Below are positions 38,782-40,232 of a DNA stretch of 64,000 nt, piece after piece (the stretch's first letter is position 1; each line of letters begins with the position of its first letter). Below the pieces are notes generated by a model that had not been told where the DNA came from, ran no database searches, and saw only the letters and a program-made list of their open reading frames with translations. The translations under genes and the position numbers were made by a program. The stretch lies in the NCBI RefSeq assembly GCF_030733545.1, contig NZ_JASHIU010000001.1, positions 124,001-188,000 on the forward strand, written 5' to 3'. The stretch is from Oceanicaulis sp. MMSF_3324 (GTDB lineage Bacteria > Pseudomonadota > Alphaproteobacteria > Caulobacterales > Maricaulaceae).

Positions 38782-39339
38782 ATGTTCGATCTGTCTCTTT
38801 TCATCCTCGGGGGCGTCTTCGTCCTCTTCATCCTGGCGTGCCTGGCGCGATGGACCATCGCCGTGCGGGGGTTGTCCCGGGAAGCCCACGCCGAATACCA
38901 GACCCGGCAGGCGGAAAAGCCCGCCACCATCAAGGGTGTCAGCGAGGCGGAATTCGTCCGCCTGTATGTGACGAGCTTTCAGCCGCGCTGGACGCTCTAT
39001 GCCGCCGCCGCCGCCGGGGCCGCCATTCTCATCAGCCCGGTCGCCCTGTTGGCGGTGCCTGCCCTGTATGACGTGATCTGGCGCATGAATGGCGCGCCCG
39101 ATTGGGGCGGCCGGACAGGCTATGTCTTCATGTTCGCCCTGTTCTTCGGCGTCGTGTTCATCTGGGCGGCTTTCGCGGCGGTCATCGCACGCCTACATCA
39201 TCTGCGTGCGCCGGAACCGTTCAACCATGCCCTCGCCCGCGCCCGCGGCGAGCCCATTGAGGATACAGGCTGGCGACCGCGTCCCAAATGGGCGCGCAAG
39301 ATCAAGATCGATACCGCCTCGTCCAACTCTGACAGCTGA
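38782..39339 (+). CDS. Small membrane protein with three hydrophobic segments
   Basis: 185 residues: an N-terminal membrane segment (LFILGGVFVLFILACLAR), a charged stretch, a longer hydrophobic pair (YAAAAAGAAILISPVALLAVPALYDVIW and YVFMFALFFGVVFIWAAFAAVIA), and a basic C-terminal tail of about 40 residues. No family recognised. It starts 9 bases after the Ogt stop and precedes gloA by 20 bases, so it is likely cotranscribed with them. Confidence 0.72.
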   Translation: MFDLSLFILGGVFVLFILACLARWTIAVRGLSREAHAEYQTRQAEKPATIKGVSEAEFVRLYVTSFQPRWTLYAAAAAGAAILISPVALLAVPALYDVIWRMNGAPDWGGRTGYVFMFALFFGVVFIWAAFAAVIARLHHLRAPEPFNHALARARGEPIEDTGWRPRPKWARKIKIDTASSNSDS

Positions 39340-39359: not shown

Positions 39360-39824
39360 ATGCACTTTCTGCACACCATGGTGCGCGTCACCGATATTGA
39401 CGCGTCGCTGAAATTCTATTGCGACGGCCTGGGCCTGAAAGAAGTGCGCCGCACCGAGAATGAAGAGGGGCGCTTCACCCTGATTTTCCTGGCGAGCCGG
39501 GAAGACATGGCCAAGTCCGGCGTGATCGGGGAATCCAAGATCCTGCCCAAGGGCGCGCCCATGATCGAGCTGACCTATAACTGGGATCCGGAAACCTATT
39601 CCACCGGCCGCAATTTCGGCCATATCGCCTATGAAGTGCAGGACGTGTACGCACTGTGCGGGCGTCTGGCCGCCATGGGCTATGTCATTCACCGTCCGCC
39701 GCGCGATGGCCGCATGGCGTTTGTCAAAAGCCCCGATGGCATTTCCATCGAGCTTCTGCAGGAAGGCGAGGCCCTCGAGCCGGCCGAGCCCTGGCTCAGC
39801 ATGGAAAACACCGGCAGTTGGTAA
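39360..39824 (+). CDS. gloA: Lactoylglutathione lyase (glyoxalase I)
   Basis: The 154-residue protein starts MHFLHTMVRVTDIDASLKFYCDGLGL, with metal-ligand His5 as in E. coli GloA. Further metal positions are visible in FGHIAYEV and GISIELLQ. It detoxifies methylglyoxal as its glutathione adduct. GGAGCG is 6 bases upstream of the ATG. A terminator follows at once. Confidence 0.95.
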   Translation: MHFLHTMVRVTDIDASLKFYCDGLGLKEVRRTENEEGRFTLIFLASREDMAKSGVIGESKILPKGAPMIELTYNWDPETYSTGRNFGHIAYEVQDVYALCGRLAAMGYVIHRPPRDGRMAFVKSPDGISIELLQEGEALEPAEPWLSMENTGSW

Positions 39825-39840
39825 AATCACCAACCCTCGA

Positions 39841-39867
39841 AGGCCCGCCCGCAAGGCGGGCCTTTTT
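39841..39867 (+). terminator. Rho-independent terminator after gloA
   Basis: AGGCCCGCC pairs with GGCGGGCCT (9 bp) across a 5-base loop, followed by TTTTT. It begins 16 bases after the gloA stop. Confidence 0.88.
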
Positions 39868-39876
39868 GAAACTGCC

Positions 39877-39905
39877 TTGACGAGAACAGATGTTCCGTTT
39901 ATGTT
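39877..39905 (+). promoter_or_regulatory. Sigma-70-type promoter for the small SANT-like gene
   Basis: TTGACG (39877..39882), 17-base spacer, TATGTT (39900..39905): a good vegetative promoter about 22 bases upstream of the ATG at 39927, with AAGGAG (39918..) as ribosome site. A LexA box overlaps the -10 element. Confidence 0.65.
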
Positions 39906-39906
39906 C
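39892..39906 (+). promoter_or_regulatory. LexA/SOS box (GTTC-N7-GTTC)
   Basis: GTTC-CGTTTAT-GTTC is an exact match to the alphaproteobacterial LexA consensus GTTC-N7-GTTC and lies across the -10 element of the promoter above, where a repressor would block initiation. A further GAAC-AGAT-GTTC palindrome (39885..) overlaps its left half. The match is seen; SOS control is inference. Confidence 0.7.
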
Positions 39907-39926
39907 CACCCTGTAAGGAGTGGAAC

Positions 39927-40232
39927 ATGGCCTATGCAACCAAATCTGCCGGATATGCCCGAAACGCTGGCAAGCGCTGGCGTGGCGAGGATGTGAAGCT
40001 GCTCAAGGCGCTGGCCCGCCAGGGCGCGAGCTTGCGCTTGATAAGCCTGAAGCTGGGGCGTCCTGATAGCGCCATTCGCGCCAAGGCCACGACTTTGGGC
40101 CTGACCCTGAACGCCCCTTCCCCGGTTGTCGCTCCGCCGCCCAGCCGCACGCTCTCGCGGTTGCGGCGCCCGGCCCAGCGCACCGATTTTGAAAGCCTGA
40201 CCCGTCAGCCCGACCTGTTCGGCCACGCCTGA
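39927..40232 (+). CDS. Small SANT/Myb-like putative DNA-binding protein, SOS-boxed
   Basis: 101 residues. The core about residues 17-60 (KRWRGEDVKLLKALARQGAS, then LISLKLGRPDSAIRAKATTLGL) follows the SANT/Myb-like helix-turn-helix pattern found in small alphaproteobacterial proteins: Trp, acidic, leucine repeat, Arg-Leu-Gly-Arg and an Ala/Lys helix. The C-terminal 35 residues are proline and arginine rich. AAGGAG precedes the ATG. A perfect LexA box on its promoter suggests induction by DNA damage. The role is unknown; it might regulate transcription or act on DNA. Confidence 0.85.
   Translation: MAYATKSAGYARNAGKRWRGEDVKLLKALARQGASLRLISLKLGRPDSAIRAKATTLGLTLNAPSPVVAPPPSRTLSRLRRPAQRTDFESLTRQPDLFGHA

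Follow-up and report, generated by a model that had tools for sequence, protein, structure and literature searches.

We have found in the window (the whole stretch of 64,000 nucleotides that was analysed) a small gene which is very probably under LexA control. Its product, a protein of 101 residues, probably binds the DnaN sliding clamp through a candidate motif, Q-x-[DE]-L-F, located at its C-terminus. The protein also has a predicted DNA-binding domain of the GcrA type. The clamp motif is a new element, which the first-pass annotation of this DNA did not include. Its invariance likely shifts the function of the protein, as far as this can be judged from the sequence, from a transcription regulator to a replication or repair factor.

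For many SOS-induced genes the function is not known. The gene described here yields a specific prediction, namely that five residues at the end of the protein bind the clamp. If true, a damage-induced protein would act on the sliding clamp with a DNA-binding domain of its own. Such a finding would be relevant to the question of how replication is slowed, or polymerases exchanged, when the DNA of a bacterium is damaged, here in a lineage where error-prone polymerases vary from species to species. SOS-induced proteins which interact with the clamp are known as a kind, but the combination of a GcrA-type domain with a clamp motif is unusual. A literature search, limited to a few queries in a partial collection, has found no description of a small SOS-induced protein which binds both the clamp and DNA.

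The features of the locus are listed in Table 1. An exact LexA box overlapping the -10 element of a promoter had been described in the first-pass annotation, and both the sequence match and the promoter scan bear this out. The promoter, TTGACG-N17-TATGTT (39877-39905), is the only sigma70-like site that the scan detects between positions 39300 and 40400. The distance from the box to the ATG (39927) is indeed 20 bases, and the open reading frame has the length given before. The terminator placed between gloA and this gene is also present. By reading, its hairpin is AAGGCCCGCC-CGCAA-GGCGGGCCTT (39840-39864), and the two closest orthologues likewise have a terminator after gloA. It would have an insulating role, separating the SOS-boxed gene from gloA. 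The gene found on the 3' side is convergent and membrane-protein-like, so the SOS-boxed gene forms a single-gene unit.

Table 1. Features of the SOS-boxed locus, in window coordinates.
Feature	Position	Strand	Basis
gloA (glyoxalase I family), upstream neighbour	39360..39824	+	ORF; Pfam Glyoxalase E 3.5e-21
Rho-independent terminator 3' of gloA (10-bp stem, 5-base loop, T run)	39840..39867	+	terminator scan and sequence
-35 element TTGACG	39877..39882	+	promoter scan
LexA box GTTC-N7-GTTC, GTTCCGTTTATGTTC	39892..39906	+	exact match
-10 element TATGTT, within the LexA box	39900..39905	+	promoter scan; kept in orthologues
Ribosome-binding site AAGGAG	39915..39920	+	sequence
SOS-boxed gene, 101 codons (residues)	39927..40232 (stop ends at 40232)	+	ORF; 23 orthologues; dN far below dS
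Predicted GcrA-type helix-turn-helix domain, residues 9-60	39951..40106	+	AlphaFold2 model; structural match
Variable, low-confidence linker (probably disordered), residues 61-93	40107..40205	+	low conservation, low pLDDT
C-terminal QPDLF, candidate beta-clamp (DnaN) binding motif, residues 94-98	40206..40220	+	Q, L and F invariant in 23/23 orthologues

A protein search of 137 genomes of the family Maricaulaceae gives 23 orthologues, including the one in the window. Those in named genera belong to Oceanicaulis, Alkalicaulis, Glycocaulis and Marinicauda. One genome of the same genus (G088) gives no match, but its gloA is terminal on a contig, which makes the absence uninformative. The ratio of substitutions is that of a coding sequence: dN is far below dS between orthologues (0.032 against 0.568, for example). 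The open reading frame is a real gene. On the other hand, the family is narrow. It covers only part of one bacterial family, and therefore does not belong to the core SOS response of Alphaproteobacteria.

The absence of the box from orthologues had been proposed as a reason to abandon SOS control. All 23 orthologues have an exact GTTC-N7-GTTC upstream of the start codon, placed on the -10 element. When the orthologues are aligned on the box, the eight bases of the half-sites are completely invariant, and the TTGAC of the -35 element, found at a fixed distance from the box, has a mean conservation of 96%. The bases around these two elements are conserved at about 50% on average. In eleven orthologues (L004-L012, L014, L015) a second, divergent LexA box, oppositely oriented, lies 34-36 bases upstream; the -35 element is then flanked by both boxes. 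In some pairs of orthologues synonymous sites are near saturation while dN is still low: both the gene and its box are thus under selection.

The end of the protein is equally constant. The sequence Q-x-[DE]-L-F, followed by zero to three residues, closes the protein in every orthologue, in the forms QPDLF, QGDLF, QMDLF or QLELF. Its Q, L and F are 100% conserved. Shuffling of the tails predicts 0.016 such endings among 23 proteins, against the 23 observed. The linker which precedes the motif is the least conserved part of the protein, the most frequent residue at each position reaching 38% on average. The motif itself lies in a low-confidence region of the AlphaFold2 model, consistent with an exposed and flexible position. 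Clamp motifs of bacteria follow the consensus QL(S/D)LF and are found at protein C-termini (PMC9690074). QASLF is present in the replicative polymerase, DnaE, of the same genome, and a comparable motif of Caulobacter HdaA is required for its interaction with DnaN (PMC3836487). Some features count against clamp binding. The second position is G in six orthologues and P in three, both less typical than L, and the third position is E in about half of the orthologues, outside the strict S/D consensus. Short motifs can also stay conserved for other reasons.

The first-pass annotation had labelled the protein SANT/Myb-like, a label which does not hold. Pfam gives no match above its cut-off, only sub-threshold ones to GcrA (E 0.03) and Myb (E 0.056). 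The Myb/SANT model scores 14 bits, with a cut-off of 24.4. No family is found in NCBIfam. A sequence search of solved structures returns nothing beyond a weak Myb domain and a helix-turn-helix that binds CRISPR repeats. The AlphaFold2 model, built with 16 orthologues, has four helices in residues 10-57, with a pLDDT of about 90 over residues 21-60 and a low-confidence tail. Its top structural match, according to VIA-align, is the DNA-binding domain of Caulobacter GcrA (5yiu), with 33% identity over 48 residues, rmsd 2.0 and Z 7.5; a Z of this size may reflect a common fold, but the sequence similarity also favours GcrA. Foldseek gives an rmsd of 1.0 over 44 columns against the same structure, but with E 0.47. 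From the fold and the weak sequence signal we infer a helix-turn-helix of the GcrA type, for which DNA binding is predicted. Any preference for methylated GANTC would be hypothetical.

The resemblance to GcrA extends to the layout, since a disordered linker follows the DNA-binding domain in both proteins (PMC7403470), but it does not extend to the second half. In GcrA this half is a sigma-binding domain (PMC7403470). In the protein described here it is absent: the Pfam match covers only positions 2-65 of the 155 of the GcrA profile, and all 23 orthologues have about 100 residues. A clamp-type motif is found instead, and the gene has a LexA box. These differences weigh on the reading of the protein as an SOS-induced transcription regulator or nucleoid protein, whose GcrA-like domain would bind specific promoters and whose C-terminal motif would be secondary. 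The predicted fold agrees with such a regulator, and so does a match, limited to the DNA-binding domain, to a D5-like phage transcription regulator in PHROG (E 4.8e-7). Nevertheless, we consider it unlikely: there is no sigma-binding domain in any orthologue, the Q..LF is invariant, and nearly all the homologues examined which lack Q..LF also lack the LexA box.

These homologues include short proteins of the sphingomonad type, GcrA proteins, and proteins from Pseudomonas phages and plasmids. The short sphingomonad-type and Pseudomonas phage proteins (about 70 residues, ending in SPYG or SPYN) have a homologous domain with about 50% identity, but they do not have the QxxLF tail. In fact, the Q-x-[DE]-L-F tail is absent from all the outside homologues that we have read, whether from relatives in the order and class, from phages or from plasmids. 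A LexA box in the right orientation is also absent near those examined, with the exception of L044, where a box-like match lies 88 bases before the matched stretch; this is a single case. A divergent homologue of 60 residues in another genus (L163, G004:C15:46498) occupies the same position between gloA and dapB; it lacks both the box and the clamp motif. Since homologues elsewhere lack the tail, and nearly all of them the box, both seem to have arisen, or to have been kept, together in this clade. We have rejected a phage origin: phage and plasmid matches are limited to the DNA-binding domain, and the two viral proteins that we have read have a different tail.

The explanation that we favour as a whole, and consider reasonably likely, is a LexA-repressed, damage-induced, GcrA-like DNA-binding protein which would be tethered to DnaN. 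LexA placed on the -10 element would block RNA polymerase, and its cleavage, triggered by RecA, would lift the repression after DNA damage. The product would bind DNA through the helix-turn-helix, while the C-terminal motif, carried by the flexible linker, would dock in the hydrophobic cleft of DnaN. At damaged forks or gaps the protein would thus sit on DNA beside DnaN, where the replicative polymerase and other proteins that bind the clamp would be its competitors. The outcome would be slower synthesis, or easier polymerase exchange and access for repair. Such competition or exchange could well be the main outcome, a suggestion that we make tentatively. Somewhat more tentatively still, we propose an SOS effector composed of a GcrA-type domain without the sigma arm and a clamp hook, present only under damage, which might hold the clamp at forks, or throttle it, whichever error-prone polymerase the species uses.

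There is a precedent in a related bacterium for a clamp-binding protein able to block elongation: Caulobacter crescentus SocB, which does so via its clamp-binding motif (PMC9690074; PMC12795458). Compared by their features, both proteins share a motif of this kind and a connection with SOS and replication. The protein described here, small, LexA-boxed and with the motif, might then be a brake of the same sort, a checkpoint or toxin which brings forks to a complete halt. We find this improbable. SocB is a toxin whose antitoxin is SocA, but no adjacent antitoxin gene of the SocAB type is present at our locus, where the gene stands alone between gloA and the convergent gene with a LexA box of its own. 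Moreover, it has a conserved DNA-binding domain of the GcrA type, which a pure plug would not need.

ImuB and other clamp-binding SOS proteins also share with our protein their SOS regulation and the expected docking on DnaN. They differ in that the small protein is not a relative of polymerases, has about 100 residues, and is present with or without a second DnaE. The genome of the window codes for a single DnaE. Its Y-family proteins are two in number, DinB and a divergent member, so that it has no DnaE2 and no evident ImuB. The divergent polymerase (G000:C11:407006-408250; L099, L171) is LexA-boxed. Eight other genomes of the genus have a second DnaE, and by reading we have found an imu-type cassette with an upstream LexA box in G009 and G094. 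Within the genus, five genomes have the divergent Y-family polymerase without a second DnaE, while the eight with a second DnaE do not have that polymerase. Some genomes of the Glycocaulis type have both. The small SOS-boxed protein is present in all these cases. Because it is found with each system alone and with both, it is not a dedicated partner of either, and we have rejected ImuB/DnaE2 and the LexA-boxed Y-family polymerase as exclusive partners. An adaptor that brings one of these SOS polymerases to the clamp would make sense in the genome of the window, whose LexA-boxed Y-family polymerase has, by reading, no strict clamp motif. A dedicated adaptor should track one polymerase, which this gene does not do, so such a role is very unlikely.

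The LexA box itself requires some caution. In Caulobacter, GTTC-N7-GTTC has been published as the LexA box (PMC12700426; PMC9578287). A search of the whole genome gives 75 exact matches, against 62 for a reversed-pattern control, and shuffles give a mean of 1.31 matches expected by chance in a 64-kb window. Most matches must be due to chance, and we have rejected their number as evidence for LexA control. A match taken alone is weak and not significant; the box described here becomes significant because it is placed on the -10 element and conserved in all orthologues. A chance match upstream of a constitutive gene, which the genome-wide counts would allow for any single site, is hardly credible for a box which all 23 orthologues keep at a fixed spacing, although some pairs of them are close to saturation at synonymous sites.

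The same genome also has exact boxes upstream of SOS genes identified by Pfam: 51 bases before the start of lexA, 86 before recA and 49 before ssb. Others are found upstream of uvrA, which is divergent from ssb, of mmcB (25 bases) and of a Y-family polymerase (47 bases). The proposal that this small DNA-binding protein is regulated by SOS through LexA, outside the usual SOS genes, is thus supported by the orthologous boxes and by the use of the same box at known SOS genes.

Exact matches are also found upstream of a few other genes in this genome. An AT-rich box of the LexA type lies 69 bases upstream of a gene for a C-5 cytosine DNA methyltransferase (L091, G000:C11:199253). A second box is found 43 bases upstream of a ROK-family gene followed by dinB, which codes for DNA polymerase IV (L112, L170, G000:C18:166075). 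Judging by this arrangement, both genes possibly form one SOS unit; a divK-like gene is located on the other side. A third box lies 171 bases upstream of mraZ (L088, G000:C9:32140), the gene with which the cell-division cluster usually begins.
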